From: Pseudodesulfovibrio hydrargyri
GTDB lineage: Bacteria > Desulfobacterota > Desulfovibrionia > Desulfovibrionales > Desulfovibrionaceae
Length of the DNA: 64,000 nt
Assembly: GCF_001874525.1 (NCBI RefSeq)
Contig: NZ_LKAQ01000004.1
Span: 2,446,730-2,510,729 of the forward strand
Reading direction: 5' to 3'
The position numbers and the translations under genes were made by a program. This document shows positions 111 through 40,811 of this stretch, one piece after another (position 1 is the first letter of the stretch; every line of letters begins with the position of its first letter). The notes under the pieces were generated by a model, which saw only the letters and a program-made list of their open reading frames with translations, was not told where the DNA came from and searched no databases.

Positions 111-226
111 GCGAAGCGGCGATATAAAGTTTAGGAAGGAAAGGGGGATGGGGGTCCGGGGGAAGGGGGAAAGGGAAGCCCTTTTCAAAGGGTTCCCTTT
201 CCCCCTTCCCCCGGCCGCCGGAGGCG
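111..226 (-). repeat. Dispersed 3'-end palindromic repeat, copy A
   Basis: Read on the minus strand, this copy begins GCCTCCGGCGGCC, then has a purine-rich/pyrimidine-rich hairpin (GGGGGAAGGGGG arm), a pyrimidine-rich tail and a closing CCGCTTCGC box. Four related copies occur in this window. It starts 5 nt beyond the terminator of the TPR gene, in the direction of that gene's transcription. Open frames across it give a repetitive peptide of the GKGEREALFKGFPFPLPP kind, which I regard as spurious. Confidence 0.85.
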
Positions 227-230: not shown

Positions 231-270
231 CAACGAAAAAGGGCTCCCTGACGGGAGCCCTTTTTCGTTG
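231..270 (-). terminator. Strong intrinsic terminator after the TPR gene
   Basis: A perfect 17-bp stem (231-247 with 254-270) encloses a 6-nt loop. A-tracts and T-tracts on both sides make it usable in either direction. It lies 17 nt past the stop codon of the minus-strand TPR gene and most likely ends the whole ddl-waaA-kdsB-carA-TPR transcript. Confidence 0.9.
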
Positions 271-287: not shown

Positions 288-1088
288 CTAGCCCATTTTT
301 TTCTGGGCGAATTTGAGCATTTTGACGGCTTCGGCGAAGCCGGGGTTGATTTCCACGGCCTTGTTGGCGGAGCTGGCCATTTTGCCCCATTTGCGCCAGT
401 CGTAGTAGAGGCGGCCCATATTGTAGTGCAGGTATTCGTCGTCGGTGGTCAGGGTCAGGGCCTTGAGATAGTATTTTTCGGCGGTCTCGAAGTCCTGCAT
501 CTTGCGCAGGACCATGCCGATACGGTTGTACAGGTGGATGGCGTTGGGGTCGTCCTTGAGCGCCTCGTCCAGCATGGAGTAGGCTTCCTTGTACCGGCCC
601 GCGTTGAGGTAGCGGTCGGCGATGTCGGCCTTGAGCTCCGGGTCGCCGCTGAAGGTGCGCACCAGTTGGTCGAAGACCTCGCTGGCCTGGTCCCACTCCT
701 GGGCGTCCAGGAACGCCTGGCCCTTTTCCAGTTCGGCCAGTTTCTGGGCGTTGAGCGCCTCCAGGTCACCCTGGACCTCTTCGTTCAGGGCCTTTTGCAG
801 CTCCTGGAGCAGCTCGCGCATGGCGTCGAGCAGGGGACGTTCCTGGCCCGGCTCGTAGCTGATGACCAGGGGGTAGATCTTGCGCAGCTCCTTGTCGGAG
901 TTGAGCACGTAGGTGACCTTCTGGAGGATTTCCTCGAACTCGTCCCGCTCGTTCTTCATGACCTGATTCTTGAGGAAGAGAATGAGGCCGTCGTGAACCG
1001 CCTGCACGGCAGGCATGTACTTGCCTTTTTTCAGGAGGGTGGCGACGGAATTCAGCTTCTTGCGCGACTTGATCAGATCTGCGGACAT
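288..1088 (-). CDS. Tetratricopeptide repeat protein
   Basis: This 266-residue protein has an alpha-helical N-terminal region (about residues 1-110) with no recognised motif. About four TPR units follow from about residue 118 (EKGQAFLDAQEWDQA, RYLNAGRYKEAYSML, NRIGMVLRKMQDFETAEKYY, YNMGRLYYDWRKWGKM). TPRs are protein-binding scaffolds, so it is probably an adaptor. There is no signal peptide or membrane helix, so it should be cytoplasmic. It is the last gene of the minus-strand operon, 30 nt after carA. Nothing here identifies the partner. Confidence 0.8.
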   Translation of the reverse strand: MSADLIKSRKKLNSVATLLKKGKYMPAVQAVHDGLILFLKNQVMKNERDEFEEILQKVTYVLNSDKELRKIYPLVISYEPGQERPLLDAMRELLQELQKALNEEVQGDLEALNAQKLAELEKGQAFLDAQEWDQASEVFDQLVRTFSGDPELKADIADRYLNAGRYKEAYSMLDEALKDDPNAIHLYNRIGMVLRKMQDFETAEKYYLKALTLTTDDEYLHYNMGRLYYDWRKWGKMASSANKAVEINPGFAEAVKMLKFAQKKMG

Positions 1089-7921: not shown

Positions 7922-8926
7922 ATGTCTGACAAGGTTCTTCTCGACTACGGCAGCGGCGGCCGCGCTTCCCAGCGCCTGATTTCCGAACTCTTCCTGAAAT
8001 ATCTCGGCAACGACGAACTCGACCGCCTCAACGACGCGGCGGTCCTTTCCCTGTCCGGCAAAATCGCCATGTCCACCGACTCCTTCACCGTGGACCCGAT
8101 CTTTTTTCCCGGCGGCGACATCGGCTCCCTGGCCGTGCACGGCACGGTCAACGACGTGGCCATGATGGGCGCGGTGCCGCGCTACATCACCTGCGGCTAC
8201 ATCATCGAGGAAGGGCTGCCCATGGCCGACCTGGAACGCATCGTCCGATCCATGGGCGAGGCCGCCGAACACGCCGGGGTCAAGGTCGTCACCGGCGACA
8301 CCAAGGTCGTGCCCCGGGGCGCCTGCGACAAGATTTTCATCAACACCACCGGCATCGGCGAAGTCATCGCCGACCCGACACCGAGCGGCGACGCGGCCAG
8401 GAAGGGCGACGCGGTCCTGGTTTCCGGAACCATCGGCGATCACGGCCTGACCGTGCTCGGCACCCGCGAGGGGCTGGATTTCGAGGCCAAGGTCCAGTCC
8501 GACTCCGCCGCCCTCAACCACCTCCTGGTCAAGCTCGTCCGCGAGCTGCCCGAGGTCCACGTCCTGCGCGACCCCACGCGCGGCGGCCTGGCCACCACCC
8601 TGAACGAGATCACCAAGAGCTCGAACGTCTGCTGCGAACTGACCGAGACCAGCATCCCGGTACGCCCCGAGGTCAAGGGCGGCTGCTCGATCCTCGGCCT
8701 GGACCCGCTCTACCTGGCCAACGAGGGCAAGTTCCTCTGCGTCCTGCCCGCCGAACACGCCGACAAGGCGCTCGAAATCATGCGCGCCGACCCGCTCGGC
8801 CGGGACGCCTGCCGCATCGGCACCATGACCGACGCCAACCCCGGCAAGGTCGTCCTCGTCACCCAGCTTGGCGGCAAACGCCTCCTCGGCATGTTGGAGG
8901 GCGAACAACTCCCGCGCATCTGCTAG
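7922..8926 (+). CDS. hypE: Hydrogenase maturation factor HypE (carbamoyl dehydratase)
   Basis: HypE accepts a carbamoyl group from HypF on its C-terminal cysteine and dehydrates it with ATP to the cyanide ligand of [NiFe]-hydrogenases. The 334-residue protein has the AIRS/AIRS_C fold seen in PurM and SelD (DYGSGGRASQRLI, DSFTVDPIFFPGGDIG, RDPTRGGLATTLNE) and ends in PRIC, so the acceptor cysteine (Cys334) is present. It lies 3 nt after hypD and ends at a strong terminator. Confidence 0.97.
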   Translation: MSDKVLLDYGSGGRASQRLISELFLKYLGNDELDRLNDAAVLSLSGKIAMSTDSFTVDPIFFPGGDIGSLAVHGTVNDVAMMGAVPRYITCGYIIEEGLPMADLERIVRSMGEAAEHAGVKVVTGDTKVVPRGACDKIFINTTGIGEVIADPTPSGDAARKGDAVLVSGTIGDHGLTVLGTREGLDFEAKVQSDSAALNHLLVKLVRELPEVHVLRDPTRGGLATTLNEITKSSNVCCELTETSIPVRPEVKGGCSILGLDPLYLANEGKFLCVLPAEHADKALEIMRADPLGRDACRIGTMTDANPGKVVLVTQLGGKRLLGMLEGEQLPRIC

Positions 8927-8986: not shown

Positions 8987-9088
8987 GCCTCCGGCGGCCG
9001 GGGGAAGGGGAAAAGGGCTTCCCTCTCCCCCTTCCCCCGGACCCCCATCCCCCTCACCCTCCGAAACCTTTTGTATCCGCTTCGCGGG
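8987..9088 (+). repeat. Dispersed 3'-end palindromic repeat, copy B (shortened core)
   Basis: This copy starts 3 nt after the hypDE terminator and reads GCCTCCGGCGGCC, a shortened purine/pyrimidine palindrome, then GGACCCCCATCCCCC, a pyrimidine-rich stretch and CCGCTTCGCGG. Relative to copies A, C and D, the centre of the palindrome has lost its CCCTTTTCAAAGGG tip. Orientation relative to the upstream gene matches copies A and C. Confidence 0.85.
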
Positions 9089-12622: not shown

Positions 12623-12698
12623 GCTGGCGTAGCTCAATTGGTAGAGCAGCTGATTTGTAATCAGCAGGTTGCGGGTTCAAGTCCCATCGCCAGCTCCA
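12623..12698 (+). tRNA. tRNA-Thr (anticodon TGT)
   Basis: A complete cloverleaf with acceptor stem GCTGGCG/CGCCAGC, anticodon loop TTTGTAA and an encoded CCA end. It is first of four tRNAs ahead of tuf, in the Thr-Tyr-Gly-Thr order also found before E. coli tufB. Confidence 0.97.
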
Positions 12699-12710
12699 TA
12701 AGACACAAAT

Positions 12711-12796
12711 GGTGGGGTTCCCGAGTGGCCAAAGGGAACAGACTGTAAATCTGTCGGCATACGCCTTCGGAGGTTCAAATCCTCCCCCCACCACCA
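12711..12796 (+). tRNA. tRNA-Tyr (anticodon GTA)
   Basis: A class II tRNA with a long variable arm, acceptor stem GGTGGGG/CCCCACC, anticodon loop CTGTAAA and an encoded CCA. It lies 12 nt after tRNA-Thr. Confidence 0.97.
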
Positions 12797-12859
12797 TAAT
12801 TTTTCGAGTCACGCTGTAGGAGGCGGTCCCAGAGTCCGTCGATGGACTACAGAGAGTGA

Positions 12860-12936
12860 GCGGGAATAGCTCAATTGGCTAGAGCATCAGCCTTCCAAGC
12901 TGAGGGTTGCGGGTTCGAGTCCCGTTTCCCGCTCCA
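12860..12936 (+). tRNA. tRNA-Gly (anticodon TCC)
   Basis: Acceptor stem GCGGGAA/TTCCCGC, anticodon loop CTTCCAA and an encoded CCA. The 63-nt spacer before it contains a small hairpin and no gene. Confidence 0.97.
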
Positions 12937-12986
12937 TTTTAGCCATCTCTCTCCTTCCATCATCTTTATATACAGTGTATGGCTGT

Positions 12987-13062
12987 GCTCACGTAGCTCA
13001 GTCGGTAGAGCACATCCTTGGTAAGGATGAGGTCACCGGTTCAAATCCGGTCGTGAGCTCCA
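12987..13062 (+). tRNA. tRNA-Thr (anticodon GGT)
   Basis: Acceptor stem GCTCACG/CGTGAGC, anticodon loop TTGGTAA and an encoded CCA. It is the last tRNA before tuf, 88 nt upstream of the tuf start, and is probably processed from the same transcript. Confidence 0.97.
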
Positions 13063-14509: not shown

Positions 14510-14586
14510 AGGGGTATAGTTCCAACGGCTAGAACGCCGGTCTCCAAAACCGGATGTTGGGGGTTCGAATCCCTCTACCCCTGCCA
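14510..14586 (+). tRNA. tRNA-Trp (anticodon CCA)
   Basis: Acceptor stem AGGGGTA/TACCCCT, anticodon loop CTCCAAA and an encoded CCA. It lies 13 nt after rpmG within the tuf-secE-nusG operon. Confidence 0.97.
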
Positions 14587-26693: not shown

Positions 26694-27065
26694 ATGCCCA
26701 CCATTAACCAGCTCATCCGCAAAGGCCGCGAAGCGCAGCCCAAGCGGAAGAAAACCCCGGCCCTGATGGAATGCCCTCAGCGTCGAGGCGTTTGCACCAG
26801 GGTGTACACCACGACCCCGAAGAAGCCGAACTCCGCGCTTCGTAAGGTCGCCCGCGTGCGCCTGACCAACGGCATGGAAGTCACCGCCTACATCGGTGGT
26901 GAGGGCCATAACCTGCAGGAACACTCCGTGGTCCTGATCCGCGGCGGCCGTGTGAAGGACCTTCCCGGTGTCCGTTACCACATCGTTCGCGGTACCCTCG
27001 ATACCTCCGGTGTCGACGATCGTCGCCGCGGCCGTTCCAAGTACGGCACCAAGCGCCCGAAATAA
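26694..27065 (+). CDS. rpsL: 30S ribosomal protein S12
   Basis: S12 controls decoding accuracy at the A-site. The 123-residue protein begins [12 protein letters not shown] and has the streptomycin-region motifs [11 protein letters not shown] and [13 protein letters not shown] with the ordinary sensitive lysines. It is first in the str operon and is preceded by a GGAGGATGA site. Confidence 0.98.
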
Positions 27066-27073
27066 GGTTATAG

Positions 27074-27634
<561 letters not shown>

Positions 27635-27649
27635 TCACGGAGTAGTAAA

Positions 27650-29722
27650 GTGGCGAGACAAGTACCCAGAGACAAACAGCGCAATATTGGTATCATGGCC
27701 CACATCGATGCGGGCAAGACTACCACTACCGAGCGAATCCTGTTCTACACCGGCGTGTCCCACAAGATCGGCGAGGTCCATGACGGCGAGGCCACCATGG
27801 ACTGGATGGTCCAGGAGCAGGAACGCGGCATCACCATCACGTCTGCCGCGACCACCTGCTTTTGGCGCGAGCACCGCATCAATATCATCGACACCCCGGG
27901 CCACGTGGACTTCACCATGGAAGTCGAGCGCGCCCTGCGCGTGCTGGACGGCGCCATCGCCGTCTTCGACTCCGTCGCCGGCGTGGAGCCCCAGTCCGAG
28001 ACCGTGTGGCGCCAGGCGGACCGCTATAAAGTGCCCCGCATGGCCTTCGTCAACAAGATGGACCGCATCGGCGCGGACTTCTTCCGTTGCGTCGAGATGA
28101 TGAAGACTCGTCTGGGCGCCAAGGCCGTTCCTCTCCAGCTGCCCATCGGCGCCGAGGACGACTTCGAAGGCGTCGTCGACCTGATCGAGGGCAAGGCCTA
28201 TATCTATGACCACCTGGATCACGGCGCGAGCTTCACCACCACCGACGTCCCGGCCAACCTCCAGGACCAGTACGAACTTATGCGCGCCGAGATGATCGAA
28301 GCCATCGCCGAGGAGGACGAAAGCCTTCTCGAAAAGTACATGGCCGACGAGCCCCTGACTCCGGAAGAGCTGCGCGAGGGCGTGCGCAAGGCGACCACGA
28401 ACCTGACCATCTGCCCCGTGCTGTGCGGCACCGCGTTCCGCAACAAGGGCGTGCAGCCGCTGCTCGACGCCGTCGTCGACTACCTGCCCAGCCCGCTGGA
28501 CGTCGTGGTCATGAAGGGCATGGACCCGAAGACCGAGGAGCCCATCGAGTGCCCCTGCGACGATGACGAGCCCCTGGCCGCGCTGGCATTCAAGCTCATG
28601 ACCGACCCGTTTGTCGGTCACCTGACCTTCCTGCGCCTCTACTCGGGCAAGATCGAGTCCGGCGCCACGTTCATGAACGCGGCCACCGGCAAGAAGGAGC
28701 GCATCGGTCGTCTGTTGAAAATGCACGCCAACAAGCGTGAGGAAATTAAAGAGGCATACGCCGGCGACATCGTCGCCGCCGTCGGCCTCAAGAACGTGGC
28801 CACCGGCGATACCCTGTGCGACCTCAAGCGCGCTGTGGTTCTGGAGTCCCTGGACATCCCCGAGCCGGTTATCGAAGTGGCCATCGAACCCAAGACCAAG
28901 GCAGACCGCGACACCCTGTCCGCCGCCCTCGTCAAGCTGGCCAAGGAGGACCCGTCCTTCCGCGTCAAGGGCGACGAGGAGACCGGACAGACCCTGATCG
29001 CCGGAATGGGCGAGTTGCACCTCGAGATCATCGTTGACCGCCTGCTGCGCGAGTTCAACGTGAACGCCAACGTGGGCGCCCCCCGCGTGGCTTACCGAGA
29101 GACCATCTCCGCGCCGAACAAGGTCGATGTCAAGCATGCCAAGCAGTCTGGTGGTCGTGGTCAGTACGGCCACGTCGTCATCGAAGTCGAGCCGAACCCC
29201 GAGAACGGCTACGAGTTCGTCGACGAGATCAAGGGCGGCGTGATTCCCAAGGAATACATCCCCGCCGTGGACAAGGGCATCCAGGATGCCATGAAGAACG
29301 GCATCTCGGCCGGGTTCCCGGTCGTCGATGTGAAGGTCAAACTGGTCTTCGGCTCCTTCCATGAAGTCGACTCCAGCGAGCAGGCCTTCTACATCGCCGG
29401 TTCCCTGGCCATCAAGGAAGCCTGCAGAGGCGCCAAGCCGGTACTGCTCGAGCCGATCATGTCGGTGGAAGTGGTCACCCCCGAGGACTACCTCGGCGAC
29501 GTCATGGGAGACTTGAACGGCCGCCGCGGCCGGGTGGGCGAAATGGAAGCCCGCACGGGCGTGCAGGTCATCCGGTCCTTTGTGCCGCTGTCCGAGATGT
29601 TCGGTTACGCCACGGATCTTCGTTCGAAGACCCAGGGCAGGGCGACCTTCACCATGCAGTTCGACCACTACGAGAAGTTGCCGAACAACTTGGCCGAAGA
29701 ATTGATGAAAGGAAACGACTAA
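27650..29722 (+). CDS. fusA: Elongation factor G
   Basis: EF-G is the GTPase that drives ribosomal translocation. The 690-residue protein has the P-loop [13 protein letters not shown], switch [28 protein letters not shown] and all five domains. It starts at GTG after GGAGTAGTAAA. It is the usual bacterial length and ends the str operon without a following tuf gene. Confidence 0.98.
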
Positions 29723-29749
29723 ACGTAGAGCCTAGGATTTTCCCTTTGC

Positions 29750-29778
29750 TTGACAGTGCGGCGGTGCGGGTGTACTCA
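29750..29778 (+). promoter_or_regulatory. Candidate promoter of the S10 operon
   Basis: TTGACA (29750-29755) and TACTCA (29773-29778) are separated by exactly 17 nt in the 131-nt gap between fusA and rpsJ. The remaining leader of about 70 nt may carry the usual translational control by a ribosomal protein, but I did not identify a structure. Confidence 0.65.
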
Positions 29779-29853
29779 ACCCGACCGCTGCACAGTTCGG
29801 CGCCTTTTTCTTTTCGGGCGCGGTAAAGATAAATCCTTTGAGGAGAAAGCACT

Positions 29854-30174
29854 ATGGCTGCTTCGATGGCGAGCGATCGCATCAGAATCAAACTGAGAGC
29901 ATACGATTACCGTATTCTGGACAAGGCTGTCACCGAGATCGTTGACACCGCCCGGAATACCGGTGCGGCTATTGCCGGCCCCGTGCCGCTGCCCACCGAC
30001 ATCCATCGTACCACCGTCCAGAAATCCGTTCACGTGGACAAGAAGTCCCGCGAGCAGTTCGAAATGCGCATTCACAAGCGTCTTCTGGATATCCTTGAAC
30101 CCACTCAGCAGACCGTTGACGCCCTGGGCAAGCTTTCGCTGCCCGCCGGTGTGGACGTCGAGATCAAGCTCTAG
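29854..30174 (+). CDS. rpsJ: 30S ribosomal protein S10
   Basis: S10 is a head protein and also the NusG/NusB contact. The 106-residue protein contains [17 protein letters not shown] and GPVPLPTDI. The ATG at 29854 is supported by AGGAG 8 nt upstream; an internal ATG four codons later is possible. It is first in the S10 operon. Confidence 0.96.
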
Positions 30175-30184
30175 GAGTATAGTT

Positions 30185-30817
30185 ATGGCTAAGACTCTCG
30201 GATTGCTTGGCAGAAAGCTGGGCATGACCCGCATTTTCAAGGACGATGGTACCATCTGCCCCGTGACCGTTATCGAGGCGGGACCCTGCCCGGTCATGCA
30301 GATCAAGACCACGGACAAGGAAGGCTACAACGCCCTGCAGCTCGGCTACGACTCCGTGCCCGAGCGCAAGGTGAACAAGCCCCTGAAGGGCCACATGGCC
30401 AAGGCCGGCAAGGACCTGTACCGCCACCTCAAGGAATTCCCCCTCGAGGTCGTGGAAGGGTACGAACTGGGTCAGGAAATCACCGTCGATATCTTTGCCG
30501 CCGGTGAAAAGGTCAAGGTTACCGGTACCTCCAAGGGTAAGGGTTTCCAGGGCGTCATGAAGCGTCACAACTTCGCCGGCTCCCGCGCCTCCCATGGTGC
30601 CGAAAAAGTGCACCGCGTTCCCGGTTCCGTCGGTAACGCGACGTACCCCGGCCGTGTCTGGAAGGGCAAGAAGATGCCCGGCCAGATGGGTAATGTGCGT
30701 GTGACCTTGAGCAACGTGGAAATCGTCGATGTCAGGCCCGAGGACAACGTCCTCCTGGTCAAGGGCCAGGTGCCCGGCCCCAACAACGGCCTCGTGATGA
30801 TCCGCAAGAACGGCTAA
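30185..30817 (+). CDS. rplC: 50S ribosomal protein L3
   Basis: L3 starts large-subunit assembly and reaches the peptidyl-transferase centre. The 210-residue protein begins [18 protein letters not shown] and has the [20 protein letters not shown] loop. The start is 10 nt after rpsJ; longer frames into rpsJ are artefacts. Confidence 0.97.
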
Positions 30818-30829
30818 GAGGTATACGAC

Positions 30830-31450
30830 ATGGCAAAAATTCAAGTTGTAGATCAGAATAACAAGAAGGTTGGCGACTTCGAGCTGGCCCCCGAGGTTTT
30901 CGAGGTGGAGATCATGCCCGAAATCCTCAACCAGGTCGTCCGGGCCCAGCGCGCTTCCCAGCGCCAGGGCACTCACGCCACCAAGACCCGCGGTCTGAAA
31001 TCCGGCGGCGGCCGCAAGCCGTGGCGCCAGAAGGGCACCGGTCGTGCCCGGGCCGGCTCCACCCGTTCGCCCCTGTGGCGCGGCGGTGCCGTCCTCTTCG
31101 GACCCCAGCCCCGCGACTACGCCTTCAAGATCAACAAGAAGGTGCGCAAACTGGCCCTCAAGATGGCCCTGTCCTCCCGCGTCTCCGAAGAGAAGATGAC
31201 GGTGGTCAAGTCCATCGATCTCCCCGAGATCAAGACCAAGGCCTTTGCCGAAGTCGCCCAGAACCTCGGCCTGAACAAGACCCTGATCGTCGCCAAGAAC
31301 GCCGACAAGAATCTGGAGATGTCCGCAAGGAACATGCCCCACATCAAGGTCATCGAAGCCGACAAGCTGAATGTTTACGACGTGCTGCTGTATCCCGAGC
31401 TGGTCATGCTCGAGTCTGCCGCCCAAGACGTTCAAGAGAGGTTGAAGTAA
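30830..31450 (+). CDS. rplD: 50S ribosomal protein L4
   Basis: L4 lines the exit tunnel and, in E. coli, represses the S10 operon. The 206-residue protein contains QRQGTHATKTRG and GGGRKPWRQKGTGRARAGS, the extended tunnel loop. Its stop overlaps the rplW ATG by one base. Confidence 0.97.
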   Translation: MAKIQVVDQNNKKVGDFELAPEVFEVEIMPEILNQVVRAQRASQRQGTHATKTRGLKSGGGRKPWRQKGTGRARAGSTRSPLWRGGAVLFGPQPRDYAFKINKKVRKLALKMALSSRVSEEKMTVVKSIDLPEIKTKAFAEVAQNLGLNKTLIVAKNADKNLEMSARNMPHIKVIEADKLNVYDVLLYPELVMLESAAQDVQERLK

Positions 31451-31743
31451 TGGATTATTCGAAAGTCCTGCTCAAGCCCGTGGTCTCCGAGAAGGCCAAC
31501 GAGGCCAAGGAGCAATCCAATCACGTCTCTTTTTACGTCCACCCCGATTCCAACAAGATCGAGGTGAAGAAGGCCGTTGAGGCAGCCTTCGACGTCAAAG
31601 TCGAGTCCGTGAATATCGTGGCCAAGAAAGCCGCGCCGCGCAAGCGCATGGGCCGCCTGACCGGTGGACGCGTCCCCGGGTACAAGAAGGCCTACGTCAA
31701 GCTTGCCGCCGGCGATAAAATCGAAATCTTCGAAGGAGTGTAA
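31450..31743 (+). CDS. rplW: 50S ribosomal protein L23
   Basis: L23 sits at the tunnel exit and docks SRP and trigger factor. The 97-residue protein begins [18 protein letters not shown] and has [17 protein letters not shown]. Its ATG overlaps the rplD TAA (TAATG), so it is translationally coupled. Confidence 0.96.
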
Positions 31744-31745
31744 CC

Positions 31746-32576
31746 ATGGCAACCCGTAAGCTGAAGCCTACTTCTCCGGGCCGCCGGTTCCAGACCATCT
31801 CCGATTTCGCGGAGATCACCCGGACCACTCCCGAGAAGTCGCTGACCAAAGGTCTGACCAAGAAGGCCGGCCGCAACAACAACGGTCGCGTGACCATGCG
31901 TCGCCGCGGCGGCGGCAACAAGTCCCTGTACCGCCTGATCGACTTCAAGCGGAACAAGCTTGGCGTGCCCGCCAAGGTGGCCGAGATCGAATACGATCCG
32001 AACCGCAGCGCCCGCATCGCCCTGCTGCACTACGCGGACGGCGAGAAGCGCTATATCCTGGCCCCTGTCGGCCTGAATCAGGGCGACGTCATCACCGCAG
32101 GTGAAGGCGCCGACATCAAGCCCGGCAACGCCATGGCTCTGATCCAGATCCCGACCGGTACCGTCGTGCACAACATCGAGCTGTACCCGGGTAAGGGCGG
32201 CCAGTTCTGCCGCGCCGCCGGCACCTACGCGCAGCTCATCGCCAAGGAAGGCAAGTACGCGCTCCTGCGCATGCCCTCCGGCGAGGTCCGCAAGGTCCTG
32301 GCCACCTGTTGCGCCACCATCGGCCAGGTTGGAAACATTCATCACGAGAACATCAAGATCGGTAAGGCCGGACGGAATCGTTGGCTTGGCCGTCGCCCGA
32401 AGGTCCGTGGTGTGGCAATGAACCCGATCGATCACCCGCTGGGTGGTGGTGAGGGCCGCAGTTCCGGTGGTCGCCATCCGGTGTCCCCGTGGGGTACCCC
32501 GGCCAAGGGCTACAAGACCCGGAACAAGAAGAAGGCTTCCTCGAAGCTCATCGTCAAACGCCGCGGCCAGAAGTAG
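31746..32576 (+). CDS. rplB: 50S ribosomal protein L2
   Basis: L2 is needed for subunit joining and peptidyl transfer. The 276-residue protein has the RNA-binding core and the C-terminal [20 protein letters not shown] block with the conserved histidine. It lies 2 nt after rplW. Confidence 0.98.
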
Positions 32577-32587
32577 GAGTATAACCA

Positions 32588-32857
32588 ATGCCTAGATCTC
32601 TTAAAAAGGGCCCGTTCCTGGACGGTCACCTGATCAAGAAAATCCAAGTGGCCGCCGAGAATCAGGACCGTCGCGTGATCAAGACCTGGTCCCGCCGTTC
32701 CACGATCGTCCCCGAGATGGTCGGTATGACCTTCGCCGTCCACAATGGCCGGAAGTTCATCCCCGTGTTCGTGACCGAAAACATGGTCGGTCACAAGCTG
32801 GGTGAATTTTCCCCGACCCGCACCTACTTCGGCCACGTCGCCGACAAGAAGAAGTAG
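32588..32857 (+). CDS. rpsS: 30S ribosomal protein S19
   Basis: S19 binds the head of 16S rRNA with S13. The 89-residue protein begins [15 protein letters not shown] and contains [19 protein letters not shown] and [13 protein letters not shown]. It follows the normal rplB-rpsS-rplV order. Confidence 0.97.
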
Positions 32858-32869
32858 GGGGAGCGCACT

Positions 32870-33202
32870 ATGGAAGCCAAAGCAGTTGCCAAGTTCATCC
32901 GCGTGTCTCCGCGCAAGGCCCGCATCGTGGCCGAGAACATCAAGGGCAAGGGCGTCGAGGACGCCCTGAACATCCTCCGGTTCACCCCGAAGAAGCCCGC
33001 CGACATTCTCAGCAAGGTGCTGTACTCCGCCGTGTCCAACGCGGAGCAGATGCCCGGCGTCGATGTCGACTCTCTGATCGTCCACTCGGTGGTCGTCGAC
33101 GAGGGTCCCACCTGGAAGCGTATCAAGCCGCGCGCCATGGGCCGCGCCTACCGCATCCGGAAGCGCACCAGTCACATCACCATCGTAGTCAAGGAACAGT
33201 AG
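32870..33202 (+). CDS. rplV: 50S ribosomal protein L22
   Basis: L22 contributes a tunnel-lining loop. The 110-residue protein has [19 protein letters not shown] and the C-terminal [20 protein letters not shown] loop. It is directly followed by rpsC. Confidence 0.97.
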
Positions 33203-33203
33203 T

Positions 33204-33845
33204 ATGGGACAGAAAGTACATCCTTACGGTTTTCGTCTGGGGTATAACAAGAACTGGCTGTCCCGCTGGTACAGCAAGAAGGACTACCCGGCGTTCGTCT
33301 TCCAGGACGACCAGGTCCGCAAGTTCGTCAAGAAAAAGCTGTATCAGGCCGGCGTTTCCCGCATCGAGATCGAGCGGGCCGGCGGCAAGATTCGCCTGAT
33401 CATCCACACCGCGCGTCCCGGTATCGTCATCGGCCGCAAGGGTGTTGAGATAGAAAAGCTGCGCGAGGAATTGCGCGGCAAGTTTCAAACCGAGTTCACC
33501 ATTGAGGTCAACGAGATCCGTCGACCGGAGGTTGAAGCTCAGCTCGTAGCTGAGAACATTGCCCAGCAGCTCGAACGTCGAATTGCCTTCCGCCGTGCCA
33601 TGAAGCGTACGGTGGGCCTTGCCAGGAAATTCGGCGCCGAGGGTATCAAAGTCGCTTGTGCCGGCCGTCTGGCCGGAGCTGAAATCGCTCGCGGCGAATG
33701 GTACCGTGATGGGCGTGTGCCCCTGCACACCCTTCGTGCCGACATCGACTACGGTTTTGCCGAGGCGGCCACCACCTACGGCGTGATCGGGGTCAAGGTC
33801 TGGATCTTCAAAGGTGAGATTCTGGACAAAGAGGTACAACAGTAA
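33204..33845 (+). CDS. rpsC: 30S ribosomal protein S3
   Basis: S3 helps form the mRNA entry channel. The 213-residue protein begins [18 protein letters not shown], has a KH domain ([17 protein letters not shown]) and a C-terminal S3 domain ([20 protein letters not shown]). Its stop overlaps the rplP ATG by one base. Confidence 0.98.
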
Positions 33846-34258
33846 TGCTTGCTCCAAAAAGAGTTAAATTCAGAAAATGGCAGAAAGGCCGACTCAGAGG
33901 CAAGGCCCAACGGGGTAACATGGTGTCCTTCGGCGATATCGGGCTGAAGGCATTGGAGCACGGAAAGATCACCAACCAGCAGATTGAGTCCGCTCGTGTC
34001 GCCATCATGCGCCACATCAAGCGCGGCGGTAAGGTCTGGATACGCATCTTCCCTGATCACCCCACCACCTCCAAGCCCGCGGAAGTCCGTCAGGGCAAGG
34101 GTAAAGGCGCTCCCGACGGTTGGGTCGCGCCGGTGAAACCGGGCCGTATCATGTACGAAGTGAAGGGCGTCGACATCGAGCTTGCCAAGGAAGCCCTCAA
34201 GCGCGCTTCCTACAAGCTGCCGATCAAGACGGCCATCGTTGTGAAGGAGGGTCTGTAA
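33845..34258 (+). CDS. rplP: 50S ribosomal protein L16
   Basis: L16 lies near the A-site tRNA elbow. The 137-residue protein begins [20 protein letters not shown] and contains [19 protein letters not shown]. It is coupled to rpsC upstream and nearly abuts rpmC. Confidence 0.97.
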
Positions 34259-34259
34259 G

Positions 34260-34451
34260 ATGACTTCCAAGGAACTTCGTGAACTGGACGACGCCAAACT
34301 GGCTGAGAAGCTGAATGAATCCCGCCACGAGCTGTTCTCCATGCGTTTCAAGCATGCGACGGCTCAGCTGGAAAACACTCAGGCCCTCTCCGGCGTCAAG
34401 AAGACCATCGCCCGTATCCTGACTATTCAGCGGGAACGACAGGGAGCGTAA
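34260..34451 (+). CDS. rpmC: 50S ribosomal protein L29
   Basis: L29 is a small helical protein next to L23 at the tunnel exit. The 63-residue protein begins MTSKELRELDDAKLAEKLNE and ends KTIARILTIQRERQGA. It starts one base after the rplP stop. Confidence 0.95.
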   Translation: MTSKELRELDDAKLAEKLNESRHELFSMRFKHATAQLENTQALSGVKKTIARILTIQRERQGA

Positions 34452-34454
34452 GAA

Positions 34455-34721
34455 ATGGCTGAGTTCAAATACCAAGGCAACAAGCGCCTGCTGACCGGCC
34501 TGGTCATCTCCGACAAAGGCGACAAGACCATCGTCGTCCGCGTCGAGACCCTGGTGAAGCATCCGCTGCTGAAGAAGTACATCCGCCGCCGCAAGAAGTT
34601 CATGGCCCATGATCCGGCCAACGACTGCGGTGTCGGCGATACGGTGCAGATTGTCGAGTCGAGGCCCATGTCCAAGCGCAAGCGCTGGCACCTGGTGAAG
34701 ATCCTCGAAAAGGCCGTCTAG
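34455..34721 (+). CDS. rpsQ: 30S ribosomal protein S17
   Basis: S17 is a primary 16S rRNA binder with an OB fold. The 88-residue protein has [20 protein letters not shown] and [20 protein letters not shown]. It closes the S10 operon proper and runs on into rplN. Confidence 0.96.
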
Positions 34722-34739
34722 GGATTAGGAGGAAATCAT

Positions 34740-35108
34740 ATGATCCAGGTTGAATCCAATCTCGACGTGGCTGACAACTCCGGAGCCAAGAAGGTCGCCT
34801 GCATTAAGGTCCTCGGCGGTTCCAAGCGCCGTTACGCCAGCGTCGGAGATATTATCGTAGTGTCCGTCAAGGAGGCCATGCCCCACTCCAAAGTGAAGAA
34901 GGGCTCGGTCATGAAGGCGGTTGTCGTTCGCACCAAGAAGGAACTCGGTCGTCCCGACGGTTCCTTCATCAAGTTCGACAACAACTCCGCCGTGCTGCTC
35001 AACAACAACATGGAGCCTGTGGGGACCCGTATCTTCGGTCCCGTGGCCCGTGAATTGCGCGCCGCCGGTTTCATGAAGATCGTTTCCCTCGCTCCCGAGG
35101 TTCTGTAA
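34740..35108 (+). CDS. rplN: 50S ribosomal protein L14
   Basis: L14 forms inter-subunit bridges. The 122-residue protein begins [19 protein letters not shown] and ends [18 protein letters not shown]. It is preceded by TTAGGAGGAAA, a strong ribosome-binding site, and opens the spc gene block. Confidence 0.98.
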
Positions 35109-35118
35109 GGAAATGACG

Positions 35119-35439
35119 ATGAAGACTAAAATCCGTAAAGACGACAAGGTCATGGTCATCGCCGGGAAGGACAAGGGAAAGGTCGGCAAGGTCTTGAAGA
35201 TCCTCAAGAAGCAGGACAAGGTCCTGGTCGAGAAGGTCAATATGGTCCAACGCCATACCAAGGCCAATCCGTATGCCCAGCAGCCCGGCGGCATTATCGA
35301 GAAGGAAGCCCCTATCCATGTATCCAATGTGGCTATCGTGTGCGACGCCTGCACCAAGCCCACGCGGGTAGGGTACAAGAAGACTGAAGACGGCAAGAAG
35401 GTGCGCTTCTGCAAGAAGTGCAACGAGACCTTCAAATAG
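35119..35439 (+). CDS. rplX: 50S ribosomal protein L24
   Basis: L24 initiates 50S assembly. The 106-residue protein has the KOW motif [20 protein letters not shown] and a C-terminal pair of CxxC motifs (CDACTKP, CKKC), which may bind zinc; cysteines in this tail occur in some L24 proteins. The ATG at 35119 is preferred over 35113 because AAGGA would touch the earlier codon. Confidence 0.95.
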
Positions 35440-35447
35440 GTATCAGT

Positions 35448-35987
35448 ATGACACGTCTCGAAAAGTTGTATAACGAAAAGGTCGTCCCCGAGCTCCAGAA
35501 GGAGTACGGTTACACCTCGTCCATGGAGATCCCGAGAATGACGAAGATCTCCCTGAACATCGGTCTCGGTGCTGCCAGCCAGAACAGCAAGCTCATCGAA
35601 GCCGCCGTCGAGGAACTGACCGCCATCGCCGGCCAGAAGGCCGTGGTCACCCTGGCCAAGAAGTCCATCGCCCAGTTCAAACTGCGCGAGGGCCAGCCGG
35701 TCGGTTGCCGCGTCACCCTGCGCGACGATGCCATGTGGGACTTTTATGACAAGCTCGTGAGCTTCGCACTGCCTCGGGTCCGCGACTTCCGCGGCATCCC
35801 CGACCGCGGTTTCGACGGCCGCGGCAACTTCACCCTTGGCATCAAGGAACACACCATCTTCCCCGAGCTCGACATCGACCGCGTGGAACTGGTGAAGGGC
35901 ATGAACGTGACCGTGACCACCACGGCCAAGACCGACAAGGAAGGCAAGACCCTTCTTGACCTCCTTGGCATGCCCTTTAAAAAGTAG
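35448..35987 (+). CDS. rplE: 50S ribosomal protein L5
   Basis: L5 binds 5S rRNA and P-site tRNA. The 179-residue protein begins [16 protein letters not shown] and contains [29 protein letters not shown] and [14 protein letters not shown]. The true start is after the rplX stop; the longer frame reads back into rplX. Confidence 0.97.
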
Positions 35988-35998
35988 GAGGACGGAAA

Positions 35999-36184
35999 GT
36001 GGCCAAAACAAGCTTACGCGTTAAGGCAAGCCGCAAACCCAAGTTCAAGGTCCGCGCTTACAATCGGTGCCCGATTTGTGGCCGTCCTCGGGCTTTTCTG
36101 AGGCGGTACGGAATCTGCCGTATCTGCTTCCGCAACAAGGCTCTCGCCGGCGAACTGCCCGGCGTCCGCAAGGCGAGCTGGTAA
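35999..36184 (+). CDS. rpsN: 30S ribosomal protein S14, short zinc-binding type
   Basis: This 61-residue form (type Z) carries [20 protein letters not shown], giving two CxxC pairs for zinc. It differs from the longer zinc-free S14 of enterobacteria. It starts at GTG after GGAGGACGGAAA, a very strong site. Confidence 0.96.
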
Positions 36185-36199
36185 TTAAGGAGAAATGAA

Positions 36200-36583
36200 A
36201 TGGCTGTTGTTGATCCTGTAGCCGACATGTTGACCCGCATCCGGAATGCGTACGGCGCCTATCACACCGCTGTCGCAGTGCCGACTTCCAAGATGAAGTC
36301 CTCCATCGCGGGTATCCTGAAGGAAGAAGGTTATATCGCCGACTACGCTGTCGAGGACAGGGACATCAGTATTACGCTCAAGTACGCTGACGGCAAACCG
36401 CTCATTACTGGCCTGAAGAAGGTCAGCAAGCCCGGTCGCCGCGTGTACGTTGGTGCTTCTGATATCCCCCGTGTCCAGAACGGCATCGGTATTTGTATCG
36501 TGTCCACCTCCAAAGGGCTGCTTGAAGGCGCCAAGGCCAAAGAGGCCAATGTCGGCGGCGAGCTGCTCTGCGAAATCTGGTAA
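36200..36583 (+). CDS. rpsH: 30S ribosomal protein S8
   Basis: S8 is a primary 16S rRNA binder and the spc-operon repressor in E. coli. The 127-residue protein begins MAVVDPVADMLTRIRNAYGA and ends GICIVSTSKGLLEG plus GGELLCEIW. It has the usual length. Confidence 0.97.
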   Translation: MAVVDPVADMLTRIRNAYGAYHTAVAVPTSKMKSSIAGILKEEGYIADYAVEDRDISITLKYADGKPLITGLKKVSKPGRRVYVGASDIPRVQNGIGICIVSTSKGLLEGAKAKEANVGGELLCEIW

Positions 36584-36595
36584 AGAGGTTCCGTT

Positions 36596-37132
36596 ATGTC
36601 TCGTATAGGAAAGAATCCCATCGACATCCCCGCGGGTGTCGAGGTGTCTGTCGGAGCCTCCGAAATCCAGGTCAAGGGTCCCAAGGGAACCTTGAGCACC
36701 CCGGTCGATCCGGCCGTGGCGTACAAGATCGAGGATGGCAAGGTGTATGTCTCCCGCGTTGATGATTCCCGCCAGGCGCGCGGCCAGCACGGTCTTCGTC
36801 GGACCCTGCTCGCCAACTGCGTGGACGGCGTGACCAAGGGCTTTGCCAAGACCCTGGAAGTCATCGGCGTCGGATACAAGGTGTCCGTGCAGGGCAAGAA
36901 AGTCGTTCTGGCCGTCGGGTATTCCCACCCGGTGGAGTTCGACCTGCCCGCCGGTCTGGAGGCCAAGGTGGAAGGCGCCAAGCTGACCATCGAGGGCACC
37001 GACAAGCAGCTTGTCGGTGAAATTGCGGCCCAGATTCGTCGTGTGCGTCCGCCCGAACCCTACAAGGGCAAGGGCATCAAGTACCTCGACGAGATCATCC
37101 GCCGCAAGGCCGGTAAGTCCGGTTCCAAGTAG
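36596..37132 (+). CDS. rplF: 50S ribosomal protein L6
   Basis: L6 lies near the sarcin-ricin loop. The 178-residue protein has [28 protein letters not shown] and the C-terminal [20 protein letters not shown] motif. It has the usual length and gene order. Confidence 0.97.
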
Positions 37133-37143
37133 GGGTAATAGTC

Positions 37144-37503
37144 ATGAGCAAAAGCAAGAATGCACAGCGGCTTCTTCGCAAGCCCCGCATCAGAAAGAAG
37201 ATCTCCGGTACCGAAGCCCGGCCCCGCCTGGTCGTCTATCGCTCCAACCAGCATCTCTATGCCCAGTTGGTCGACGACGTGAACGGCGTGACCCTGGCCT
37301 CCGCCAGCACCCAGGTGCTGAACAAGGACGGCGAGGCGCTGAAGTCCAACAAGGACTCGGCCGCCAAGGTCGGCAAGGCCATTGCCGAAGCCGCCAAGGC
37401 CAAGCAGATCGAGACCTGCGTCTTCGACCGGAACGGATATATCTATCACGGCAAGATCAAAGCCCTTGCCGACGGCGCCCGTGAAGGCGGGCTGAAATTC
37501 TAG
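37144..37503 (+). CDS. rplR: 50S ribosomal protein L18
   Basis: L18 brings 5S rRNA to the large subunit. The 119-residue protein has [27 protein letters not shown] and the C-terminal [19 protein letters not shown]. It is followed by rpsE after 16 nt. Confidence 0.97.
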
Positions 37504-37519
37504 TCACCAGGAAAGTAAA

Positions 37520-38011
37520 ATGGAACAGAATGAAAGTGGATTGATTGAAAAAATCGTCTACCTCAATCGCGTCGCCAAGGTTGTCAAGGGTGGCCGCCGT
37601 TTCAGCTTCAGCTGCCTGGTGGTCGTCGGTGACGGTGAAGGGGGAGTCGGTTGCGGCCTGGGTAAGGCCAACGAGGTGCCGGAAGCCATTCGCAAGGCGA
37701 GTGAGCGCGCCAAGAAGAACATGATCAATGTTCCTCTGCTGGACGGCACCCTCCCGTATGAGGTTCTGGGACGCTACGGCGCGGGCCGCGTCATGCTCAA
37801 GCCCGCCAGCCGAGGCACCGGCATCATCGCCGGCGGTCCCGTTCGTGCGATCATGGAGGCCGTGGGCGTCAATGACATCCTGACCAAGGCCATCGGCACC
37901 AACAACCCGCACAACGTGTTGCGTGCCACCATGGCCGGATTGGAGTCCCTGCGGAGCGCGGAAGAGGTTTCGGCCCTGCGCGGCGTCTCGGTCTCCACTC
38001 CCAGAAAGTAG
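37520..38011 (+). CDS. rpsE: 30S ribosomal protein S5
   Basis: S5 takes part in decoding fidelity and the mRNA entry site. The 163-residue protein has the double-stranded-RNA-binding fold ([35 protein letters not shown]) and the [18 protein letters not shown] block. Confidence 0.97.
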
Positions 38012-38023
38012 AAGGATATCGCC

Positions 38024-38197
38024 GTGATTAAAGTCAAGCAGATCAAAAGCAAGATTGCCTGCAAGCCCGACCAGGTCAAAACCCTGGAAGCCCTGGGCCT
38101 GCGCAGGATCAATCAGGTCAAAGAGCACGATGACAATCCCGTCATCCGCGGAATGATCTACAAGGTCAGACACCTGGTGGAGGTTACCGAATCATGA
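38024..38197 (+). CDS. rpmD: 50S ribosomal protein L30
   Basis: This short gene encodes 57 residues, beginning at [23 protein letters not shown], then [10 protein letters not shown], and ending [15 protein letters not shown]. The motifs ALGLRR and [12 protein letters not shown] are typical of L30. AAGGATATCGCC precedes the start. The TGA stop overlaps the rplO ATG (ATGA), so the two are coupled. Confidence 0.95.
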
Positions 38198-38640
38198 GAC
38201 TTCATGAACTCTACGCCTTCCCGGAAGAATATAAGAACCGCAAGCGCATAGGCCGCGGCTCCGGCTCCGGCTGGGGCAAGACCGCGGCCAAGGGCCACAA
38301 GGGCCAGAACGCCCGTGCCGGCGGCGGCGTCCGTCCCGGTTTCGAGGGCGGCCAGATGCCTCTGGCCCGCCGTCTGCCCAAGCGCGGTTTCAAGAATCCC
38401 TTCCGTGAAGAATACGTTGCCGTCAACGTGGGCCGCCTGATCGCCCTGTTCGAAGGCAAGGATGAGATTACCGTTGCCGACATGTACGAGCGCGGCGTCG
38501 TCAAGAGCGGCGCCCCGGTCAAAGTGCTGGGCACCGGTGACGTCGACAAGGCCGTGACCATCGAAGCCCATCGCTTCAGCGCGTCCGCCGCCGACAAGAT
38601 TGCCAAGGCCGGCGGTACCGCCAAGGCCATTGAGGCGTAA
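38194..38640 (+). CDS. rplO: 50S ribosomal protein L15
   Basis: L15 is a late assembly protein of the large subunit. The 148-residue protein has the glycine-rich N-terminal extension ([40 protein letters not shown]). It starts inside the rpmD stop codon and leads into secY. Confidence 0.97.
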
Positions 38641-38672
38641 ACTCACTATTGATTCGGAAGGGTACTGAGACG

Positions 38673-39983
38673 ATGTCAGGAGTTGATAATATTGCCCGGT
38701 TGCCGGAGCTGCGTAAAAAGCTGCTCTGGACGTTCGCACTGCTCGCTGTCTACCGGTTGGGCATACACATCCCTATTCCCGGCGTCGATAGTGCCGCGCT
38801 TTCCGAGTTCTTCGCTCAGGCGCAGAACACCCTCTTCGGCGTGTTCGACATGTTCTCCGGCGGTGGACTCAAAAAGATGTCCATCTTCGCCCTGGGTATC
38901 ATGCCGTACATCTCGGCCTCGATCATCCTCCAGCTTCTGACCGTCGTCAGCCCCGAGCTGAAGCGGCTCCAGAAGGAGGAGGGCGAGGCCGGCCGCAAGA
39001 AGATCACCCAGTACACCCGGTACGGCACTGTGCTCATCACCGTGGTCCAGGGTTTCGCCATCGCCACCGGACTGGAGTCCATGAGCTCGCCCACGGGCGC
39101 GCCCATGGTTCTCTATTCCGGGATCGGCTTCAAGCTGATGACGATCCTGACCCTGACCGCGGGCACCGTGTTCCTGATGTGGCTGGGCGAGCAGATGACC
39201 GAAAAAGGCATCGGCAACGGCATCTCGCTGATCATCTACGCGGGTATTGTCGCCGGCCTCCCGGCCGCGCTGATCAATACCGTCCAGCTGATGAGCGTGG
39301 GCGAGATCACCCTGTTTATCCTGCTCATCCTGCTCGTAGTGATGGTGGCCACCCTGGCCTTCATCGTCTTCATGGAGCGCGGACAGCGTCGTATTCCCAT
39401 TCACTATGCCAAACGTCAGCAGGGACGCCGCATGTTCGGCGGGCAGACCACGCACCTGCCGCTGAAGATCAACACCGCGGGCGTCATCCCGCCGATCTTC
39501 GCGTCCTCCATCCTGATGTTCCCTGCAACGCTTGCCCAGTTCTCGAGCAATAAGTTCCTGCAGGACTTCTCGGCCTACTTCAGGCCGGATTCCATCCTGT
39601 ACAACATCCTGTACATCGGAATCATCATCTTCTTCTGCTATTTCTACACGGCGATCATGTTTGATCCCAAGGGAATCGCGGAGAATATCCAGAAGCAGGG
39701 CGGCTTCATCCCGGGCATCCGCCCGGGCAACCGCACCCGCGAGTACATCGACAAGGTGCTGGCCCGCATCACCCTGTGGGGCGCCTTCTATGTCTCGGCG
39801 GTCTGCGTGCTGCCCATGTTCCTGATCAGCAAATTCGGCGTCCCGTTCTATTTCGGCGGCACCTCCCTGCTGATCGTGGTCGGCGTGGCCATGGACTTCA
39901 TGGGTCAGATAGAATCCTACATGATCTCCCGCCAATACGAGGGGTTGATGGGGAAAGGCAATAAACTCAAAGGCAGGCGCTAG
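38673..39983 (+). CDS. secY: Preprotein translocase subunit SecY
   Basis: SecY is the protein-conducting channel of the inner membrane. The 436-residue protein has ten membrane helices, the first cytoplasmic segment ELRKKLLWTFALLAVYRLG, the plug region after it, and the family motif ASIILQLLTVVSPELKRL. MSGVDNIARL at 38673 is chosen as start; the 8-codon extension is not conserved. The next gene is map, with no adk between them. Confidence 0.97.
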   Translation: MSGVDNIARLPELRKKLLWTFALLAVYRLGIHIPIPGVDSAALSEFFAQAQNTLFGVFDMFSGGGLKKMSIFALGIMPYISASIILQLLTVVSPELKRLQKEEGEAGRKKITQYTRYGTVLITVVQGFAIATGLESMSSPTGAPMVLYSGIGFKLMTILTLTAGTVFLMWLGEQMTEKGIGNGISLIIYAGIVAGLPAALINTVQLMSVGEITLFILLILLVVMVATLAFIVFMERGQRRIPIHYAKRQQGRRMFGGQTTHLPLKINTAGVIPPIFASSILMFPATLAQFSSNKFLQDFSAYFRPDSILYNILYIGIIIFFCYFYTAIMFDPKGIAENIQKQGGFIPGIRPGNRTREYIDKVLARITLWGAFYVSAVCVLPMFLISKFGVPFYFGGTSLLIVVGVAMDFMGQIESYMISRQYEGLMGKGNKLKGRR

Positions 39984-39985
39984 TC

Positions 39986-40756
39986 TTGAAAAAGTTTCGG
40001 GGCGTCTTCCTCAAGAACGATAAAGAGATTGGCCTCATGCGTGAGGCCAATCGCATTGTTTCCAGAATTCTCGATGAACTCGGCGAAAACGTCAGACCCG
40101 GCGTTTCCACCATGTACTTCGAGAACATCTGCCGCGCACGCTGCGACGAGTACGGCGTGAGGCCGAACTTCCTGGGATACCAGGGGTTCCCCTTTGCCCT
40201 GTGTTGCTCCGTCAACGAGGAGATCGTGCACGGCTTTCCCTCCGAGGATCGTATCCTCAAGGAGGGCGACATCGTCAGTTTCGACATGGGTGTCGAATAC
40301 AAGGGATTCCACGGAGACTCCGCCCGCACCTTCGCGGTGGGGAAAGTTTCCGCAGAAGCGCAGAAACTCATGGATGTAACACGCGAGTCTCTGTATATAG
40401 GGATCGAACAGGCCCGGCCCGGCAACAATCTGTATGACATCTCCGCGGCAATCCAGTCATACGTTGAAGGGTTCGGCCTGGGCATCGTCCGTCGTTTTGT
40501 AGGTCATGGGATCGGCAGTCATCTTCATGAGAAGCCCGAGATCCCGAACTTCGTGCCCAGGGGGCTGTCCGGCGTTCCTCTCAAAGCCGGAATGGTCCTT
40601 GCCATTGAGCCGATGGTCACGCTGGGGACGCACGAAGTCGAGGTTCTGGACGACAATTGGACTGCGGTGACCAAGGACGGTTCACTGTCCGCTCACTTCG
40701 AGCACTCCGTGGCCGTGACCTCCGACGGACCGAGAATATTGAGCCTGTCCGACTAG
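39986..40756 (+). CDS. map: Methionine aminopeptidase, type I
   Basis: Map removes the initiator methionine from new proteins with a two-metal site. The 256-residue protein shows all five ligands: two aspartates in SFDMGVEYKGFHGDSARTF, His in GHGIGSHLHEKP, Glu in LAIEPMV and Glu in HFEHSVAV. The start is probably the TTG two bases after the secY stop, which implies coupling. It lacks the N-terminal zinc-finger extension of some type I enzymes. Confidence 0.95.
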   Translation: MKKFRGVFLKNDKEIGLMREANRIVSRILDELGENVRPGVSTMYFENICRARCDEYGVRPNFLGYQGFPFALCCSVNEEIVHGFPSEDRILKEGDIVSFDMGVEYKGFHGDSARTFAVGKVSAEAQKLMDVTRESLYIGIEQARPGNNLYDISAAIQSYVEGFGLGIVRRFVGHGIGSHLHEKPEIPNFVPRGLSGVPLKAGMVLAIEPMVTLGTHEVEVLDDNWTAVTKDGSLSAHFEHSVAVTSDGPRILSLSD

Positions 40757-40782
40757 CTCCCCCGGGAGCCGGAAATTCGGGC

Positions 40783-40811
40783 TTGCTCTTTGTTCAAAAA
40801 GGCTGTATAAA
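40783..40811 (+). promoter_or_regulatory. Candidate promoter of the alpha operon
   Basis: TTGCTC (40783-40788) and TATAAA (40806-40811) are 17 nt apart, in the 130-nt gap between map and rpmJ. A CCCCC/GGGGG hairpin (40834-40850) follows in the leader. Confidence 0.55.

Follow-up and report, generated by a model that had tools for sequence, protein, structure and literature searches.

What kind of element recurs behind gene ends, and why does it stand there? The question arises from a stretch of 64,000 nucleotides of Pseudodesulfovibrio hydrargyri (the window), part of contig 4 of a 4.08-Mb genome, in which an earlier note had described five copies of a directional repeat. It leads to a more general question, which is the one addressed here: whether triple-helical DNA has a selected role in bacteria.

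A repeat family at gene edges

The sequence was read at each of the five places, and all of them hold the repeat. Copy A (111-226, minus strand) is a complete element with the conserved box GCCTCCGGCGGCC at 213-225 (minus strand), a long purine hairpin, a mirror tail, AAACTTTAT and a small CCGCTTCGCGG hairpin. Between it and the upstream gene for a TPR protein (288-1088, minus strand; gene call and Pfam) the sequence contains an intrinsic-terminator-like hairpin with a T-run (231-270, minus strand). Copy B (8987-9088, plus strand), also complete, lies 3' of the terminator-like hairpin of a gene for an AIR-synthase-like protein (7922-8926, plus strand; Pfam). Copy C (46946-47062, minus strand) is complete as well, with one mismatch in the box, and begins 4 nt past the stop of a gene for a radical SAM protein with a CofH/MqnC C-terminal domain (47066-48160, minus strand; gene call and Pfam).

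In copy D (51206-51288, no single strand) two boxes face each other, at 51206-51218 (plus strand) and 51275-51287 (minus strand), with one 82-nt palindrome between them. Its minus-strand end lies 2 nt away from the stop codon of a DarP family gene (51290-51814, minus strand; gene call and Pfam), and the tail is lost. Copy E (59284-59343, plus strand) is a remnant that keeps the tail, CTAAACTTT/CTAAACTTTT and the small CCGCTTCGCGG hairpin and has lost box and main hairpin; it sits 3' of the terminator-like hairpin of a PutA-like gene (PutA family; 56326-59223, plus strand; gene call and Pfam). As the earlier note had it, the start follows a stop codon (C and D) or a T-run (A, B and E) at all five places. 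Compared with shuffled sequences, the folding z values are -5.6 for A, -2.8 for B, -3.4 for C, -10.8 for D and -0.2 for E. Elsewhere in the window there are five tRNA genes (12623-13059 and 14510-14583) and, at about 26,700-45,000, a long series of small same-strand genes that looks like a prophage.

The family is real and far larger than five copies. The 13-mer GCCTCCGGCGGCC has 137 exact copies in the P. hydrargyri genome (75 forward, 62 reverse) and the reversed pattern only one, so the family is not a product of chance. Exact boxes are found in 34 of the 35 other genomes of the genus, 4 to 116 in each; G030 is the sole genome of the 36 without one, and has four Y1 transposase matches. In other families of the order, 24 genomes have 0-4 boxes each (at least one in 11 of them), similar to the controls. 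Among 198 genomes of the phylum, G099, from another genus of the same family, has 76 boxes and G095 has 20, and the others have 0-9, mostly like the controls.

The pattern box-N(50-80)-AACTTTTT occurs in 48 named stretches, a list that excludes the P. hydrargyri genome itself. Fourteen are from Pseudodesulfovibrio and 10 from other Desulfovibrionaceae or Desulfovibrio; the other 24 are spread across many phyla, with chance matches among them. In L131 and L154 (Lentisphaeria and Desulfovibrio records) the box is present twice within about 100-150 nt behind an identical AT-rich flank, resembling tandem copies. Among the papers listed in a search of mostly non-subscription journals, on repeats, triplexes and Desulfovibrio or Pseudodesulfovibrio and by the box sequence, no description of the family was found.

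The element is about 115 nt long and non-coding. In the main type the order is the box GCCTCCGGCGGCC, a hairpin, GGA, a tail, AACTTTTT and a small hairpin whose loop is usually TTC. The 5' arm of the main hairpin is made up of a purine block, one to three C and a short T-run, and the strand order on the coding strand is R-Y-Y. AACTTTTT lies 24-28 nt past the stem in the commonest class and 10-14 nt past it in a short class. The pyrimidine tail that had been listed among the shared parts does exist, C-rich and poor in G; however, it is not constant, being in each copy a specific parallel complement (mirror) of the 5' arm. Set against the 3' arm of the hairpin, it forms a mirror image that changes along with that arm.

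Placement was tabulated for 171 exact boxes in four genomes (P. hydrargyri 59, G032 52, G002 40 and G099 20), using gene calls from our own hexamer script trained by GC position; the G032, G002 and G099 stretches were chosen around boxes. The box starts at most 15 nt from a same-strand stop in 69 of the 171 copies, against 2.75% of random P. hydrargyri spacer positions, 16-95 nt past such a stop in 46 and farther away in 6, so that 121 copies have a sense gene on the box side. An opposite-strand gene is found on that side in 43 copies, its start at most 25 nt away in 26 and farther in 17. Seven copies lie inside predicted genes, and 23 of the 171 are at neither kind of edge. The common rule is that the box sits at a gene edge with the tail pointing into the spacer.

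Placement right after gene ends, as originally claimed, is thus borne out at the stops, but not as a rule for 3' ends only, given the 26 copies that abut opposite-strand starts. Targeting of transcript 3' ends finds no support as the whole rule, since the box also abuts these start codons and 62 of the 69 close pairs (<650 nt) converge into the spacer. The genome-wide search, with distance and orientation tabulated, found neither a limit of five copies nor random orientation and distance. We also considered pairs as units with two different ends, a pattern conspicuous at first in the P. hydrargyri genome, and rejected this: a long-type copy is joined to another type in 30 of the 62 convergent pairs of the four genomes, with 30.7 expected.

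Next to start codons, the strand of the opposite gene carries the box as GGAGGC, 3-12 nt away in 20 of the 171 copies (null 1.9%). This end of the box occupies the expected Shine-Dalgarno position of that gene, for example at C4:552675, C4:580977 and C1:647404, and T is found at -1 in 85% of the 26 abutting copies. On the stop side, a simple terminator finder flags 21 of the 46 spacers preceding the copies at 16-95 nt, where placement after a terminator rests also on a T-rich flank and on reading of the sequence.

Edge occupancy was counted in P. hydrargyri stretches, 80 of 1250 kb of which were chosen for known boxes. In spacers of at least 60 nt, an inward copy is present on 30 of 188 convergent 3' edges, 23 of 398 tandem 3' edges, 23 of 398 tandem 5' edges and 1 of 280 divergent 5' edges; the lack of copies on all 692 edges of spacers below 60 nt is trivial, as the element is longer than that. 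In the named loci, ten proteins near boxes were checked. Pfam matches were obtained for seven, and the box downstream of each starts 3-10 nt after the stop: in L161 (Aminicenantes), L137 (Acidobacteriota), L121 and L127 (twice) from Desulfoluna, L132 (Desulfovibrio) and L119 (a Pseudodesulfovibrio record). Most of the ten were picked for a long ORF ending near the box, so they demonstrate the existence of such sites, not their frequency.

Three-strand covariation of arms and tail

The tail follows the stem of its own copy. To measure this, 420 boxes with at most one mismatch were taken, of which 202 were parsed as a hairpin plus AACTTTTT; removal of 32 whose tails were not 8-45 nt long left 170 copies (P. 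hydrargyri 62, G032 51, G002 25, others 32). The 5' arm was translated by G>C, A>T, T>A and C>C and set parallel to the tail. Over the 170 copies the mean score is 14.72 for native tails, 8.97 for reversed and 7.31 for shuffled ones. Tails swapped within length classes score 12.73 (z 14.8, 0 of 1000 as good). When dereplicated to one copy for each of 37 arm clusters, native tails score 11.32 and swapped ones 8.92 (z 7.3, again 0 of 1000).

It should be remembered that these shuffles ignore relatedness and that 37 arm clusters are not 37 independent events, a problem that dereplication and tests on pairs lessen. In 79 disjoint nearest pairs, the swap test decides for native tails in 48 and against them in 5, the other 26 being ties (p 7e-10). 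In 20 orthologous pairs it favours them 14 to 1, with 5 ties (p 0.001); here one pair is counted in both directions, 12 unparsable comparisons were dropped, and 3 of the 14 favourable pairs include a two-hairpin copy whose second hairpin lies inside the 'tail'.

When the purine code is altered (G>T, A>C) there is no signal (z -1.2 and 0.2). Codes differing only in T or C perform about as well as the one used (z 12.5-15.7 over all copies, the 15.7 being for C>G instead of C>C), so the swap test draws mostly on the purine block, and support for the T and C letters comes from the apical T-run described below. Among the aligned columns, G>C is found in 1498 of 1533 and G>A in 11, T>A in 524 of 532, C>C in 354 and C>T in 40 of 408, and A>T in 640 and A>A in 120 of 799; coming from code-guided alignments, these counts are biased toward the code used. 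AA between G's corresponds to AT in 90 of 120 cases, and a single A to T in 128 of 144.

The apical T-run offers a test that is independent of code-based alignment. Its length tracks that of the A-run in the tail (T4 with A4, T3 with A3; Fisher 2.6e-10, for 116 parsed of 143 distinct copies). Further, a C within the T-run is matched by a G in the tail in 14 of 17 copies: TTTCG is accompanied by AAAGC in 8 of 8 and TCTTG by AGAAC in 6 of 7, and another two copies whose run contains a C depart from the pattern.

Outside the genus, the mirror rule was studied in 29 parsed boxes from 14 loci of our selection, with 200 shuffles. It fits two copies of L137 and one of L147 (Acidobacteriota), where 2, 0 and 8 of the 200 shuffles are as good, and four of the five copies of L162 (Desulfovibrio sp. 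DV), where 6-16 are. For L161, with a hairpin misfolded by the script, 5 of 200 are as good. The boxes of Desulfoluna (L121, L127), Lentisphaeria, Acetobacteraceae and Firmicutes do not stand out. In these sequences, the rule is clear outside Desulfovibrionaceae only in the Acidobacteriota copies.

Matching of this kind might also reflect a functional 3'-UTR module, as the earlier note proposed. Hairpin and tail would then act in the transcript, through stability, Rho loading on the C-rich tail or an RNA triplex. The 121 of 171 copies in sense to the box-side gene agree with such a role, as do the C-rich tail with little G and the four hairpin-bearing copies of the window, which fold well as RNA. 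However, in 228 hairpins with strand-symmetric arms there are 54 G.T+T.G and 48 A.C+C.A mismatches (p 0.62); G.U-type mismatches are not in excess, and therefore nothing points to RNA. A wobble signal of 180 versus 101 (p 2.8e-6) was discarded, as arms chosen by RNAfold favour G.U and the signal is gone with strand-symmetric arms. In addition, 43 copies are antisense to the neighbouring gene and others stand behind a terminator, and C+.G-C triads are favoured by acid, according to the available text of PMC4666352.

Rfam does not assign the element to any family at gathering score either; in the window only the tRNAs reach it. On 80-260 there are 124 sub-threshold matches on both strands, mostly to microRNA-precursor families and all below their gathering scores. 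The form of an intrinsic terminator, a G+C hairpin with an immediate T-run, is not seen, AACTTTTT coming only after the 24-28 or 10-14 nt given above. An RNA module is in our judgement unlikely.

Less probable still is a G-quadruplex on the template strand at gene ends, with the mirror as a by-product of four G-runs. The four-G-run pattern is present on the template strand in 88 of 170 copies, one of which has it also on the coding strand, but the 82 pattern-free copies still prefer their native tails (z 9.8), and a G-quadruplex needs neither run-by-run register nor T>A matching. As a general explanation, we give almost no credence to a small translated ORF from ATG CCT CCG GCG GCC at the junction. 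NTG (N not C) is there in 111 of 170 copies, but in only 70 of them does the frame run open as far as the AACTTTTT box; counted over all 170 copies it is open in 111, compared with 125 and 133 for the two alternative frames, the lengths to AACTTTTT fall into all classes modulo 3 (27, 62, 22), and the junction AT is seen directly after T-runs too.

Turnover of sites and known repeat families

Among P. hydrargyri, G032, G002 and G099 stretches, 156 gene neighbourhoods are conserved, a set partly selected for boxes, and 27 of them have a box in at least one species. Both species are occupied in 23 of the 27 orthologous spacers, mostly at near-identical offsets. The four one-sided spacers comprise two with element remnants, one in which a lone atypical copy is missing and one in which a whole pair is; this pair is present in G002 and absent from G032 beside a preserved terminator, with no clear target duplication. 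Orthologous edges often carry different cassette types, with the edge itself retained. The place of copy C was located through its upstream gene in other species, and the 29 loci listed have some complete elements, some tails only and many empty sites. Site occupancy varies across the genus.

In one C4 spacer, at about 293,330-293,700, the whole two-ended unit aligns better to its G032 orthologue inverted (119) than forward (70.5), with the flanking terminators in place; the middle part alone gives 11 versus 9, which is undecided. Eight of nine comparable units align forward, and this one is a possible flip between inverted ends.

The family may be non-autonomous DNA that is mobile or spread by recombination, similar to REP, REPIN or MITE elements. 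Hairpin and tail would then be a single-stranded structure bound by some enzyme, and unmatched copies would not spread. Edge placement would come from target choice and purifying selection, the GGAGG of the box making an insertion by a start codon harmless. This would agree with the up to 137 dispersed copies, the inverted close pairs (62 of 69), the replacement of cassette types at kept edges, the pair found in G002 and not in G032, the one unit in nine that aligns better flipped, and the GGAGGC read toward opposite genes with its T at -1. In contrast, joint occupancy of 23 of 27 orthologous spacers, the absent pair without a clear target duplication and the lack of a match to copy A in plasmid and phage records (blastn) speak against it.

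The Y1 transposase (PF01797) is present in 17 of the 36 genus genomes. It is absent from copy-rich G002, G032 and G027, P. hydrargyri contains just a fragment, and no exact box occurs in G030 despite its four matches; on the other hand, copy-rich G007 has two matches and G017 one. Mobilisation by a RAYT was rejected on the absence of PF01797 from G002, G032 and G027. As for MITEs, in one spacer a pair is cleanly missing and no clear target duplication is seen, and the search for a parent transposase covered PF01797. All in all, we regard a mobile origin as possible, though rather doubtful.

The closest known kind are the intrastrand-triplex repeats BoxC/PIT/TM-ECO (Holder et al. 2015, PMC4666352, which also cites Hoyne and Maher), from which our family is set apart by the description in the available text of PMC4666352. 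Both are intergenic and multi-copy, with inverted close pairs and, as far as that text goes, no association with transposons, phages or plasmids. Both also have three consecutive blocks fit for canonical triads in one strand, the definition of PIT/ITxF, although in our family the C-run at the junction is non-canonical. However, the BoxC stems described there are nine nt and highly conserved, compared with about 20 variable triads here. BoxC belongs to class II (Y-R-R), while this family falls into class III when the coding strand is read and into class I when the template strand is. For BoxC the same text gives no trend to a specific ORF distance and no strand bias, whereas this family is anchored to gene edges. 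The features of the BoxC/TM-ECO subfamily, Y-R-R class II and no trend in ORF distance, are accordingly not those found here.

Since the stems of BoxC, the best studied family that we came across, are highly conserved, comparison cannot separate structure from sequence in them; to our knowledge the covariation and the strand switch are new relative to BoxC. The available text of Holder et al. (PMC4666352) reports for BoxC a triplex in vitro without in vivo support from DMS footprinting, and cites that promoter or terminator activity is lacking.

REP and REPIN sequences, in the available parts of PMC3116915 and PMC3733652, resemble this family as high-copy extragenic palindromes, often by genes, with inverted doublets and a conserved end box. 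Unlike them, the family has no GTAG tag at its box end, is about 115 nt long, is placed directionally and has a third strand, and several copy-rich genomes are without the Y1 transposase. Where the available part of PMC3733652 has GTAG for REPs, the box end shows GCC, with an R-A-T flank consensus before the box, and the RAYT/Y1 transposase of REPs is missing by PF01797 from the three copy-rich genomes named above. Of the REPIN features in the available part of PMC3116915, the doublets are present (62 of 69), but random extragenic placement is not. Compared with H-DNA mirror repeats as defined in the available text of PMC4060949 and PMC4666352, the 3' arm of the long type and the tail form a homopyrimidine mirror repeat around GGA. 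The family differs from H-DNA in that the mirror repeat is joined to a palindrome and the match continues through the apical T-run.

The triple-helix reading and its meaning

On the sequence evidence, triple-helix formation is the best structural reading of the covariation, and the hint at triplexes in the earlier note turned out to be the key one. The triad rules in the available text of PMC4666352 provide for pyrimidine- and purine-motif third strands, with T.A-T allowed in the purine motif. By these rules the third strand on the purine block would be a pyrimidine one if the coding strand folds or a purine one if the template strand does; A>A makes the template-strand version the better fit. 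For the T-run and the apical C, the motif is the other one and the purine strand is the opposite one. The C-run obeys neither rule and lies at the point of the switch; neither C>C at this junction nor C>T is a canonical triad.

The triplex would form when one strand is left unpaired, be it behind a fork, within a transcription bubble or through negative supercoiling, so that the tail could enter the major groove of the hairpin. The folded product, about 20 triads long, would be an alternate-strand triple helix. In the template-strand version, the tail would line the purine block with purine-motif triads, namely G.G-C, A.A-T and, where AA>AT is conserved, T.A-T. It would cross over at the C-run and form T.A-T along the apical T-run, and few protonated cytosines would be needed. 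Alternate-strand triplexes are feasible. More tentatively, the triplex knot might act as a polar roadblock or topological boundary where transcription exits the gene body, in sense at 3' ends and in antisense at 5' ends; a boundary role at gene ends has been proposed for REP elements. Whole cassettes would be swapped between places through recombination.

The sequences themselves show the family, its placement, sites conserved between species, cassette replacement at a site and the three-strand covariation. We hold with about even confidence the full reading: a genus-wide DNA element family mostly anchored at gene edges, whose tail folds onto the hairpin as an alternate-strand triple helix, which serves as a gene-edge boundary and whose cassettes are exchanged. 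That evolution maintains the triplex of about 20 triads, with its three-strand code and motif switch, as such a boundary is a claim that we make tentatively, and it may well not hold. Against a triplex in the cell, the duplex competes, and the gene-edge role could instead be a by-product of the spread of the element.

The stems are not alike in all copies, and each block of the tail changes with them, whether copies, species or orthologous sites are compared, which makes the family a natural mutation series. With stems this variable, triplex formation and its effect are directly testable, and the start at gene edges tells where to look. If the triple-helix reading is true, the family would provide comparative evidence for a triple helix under selection inside cells.
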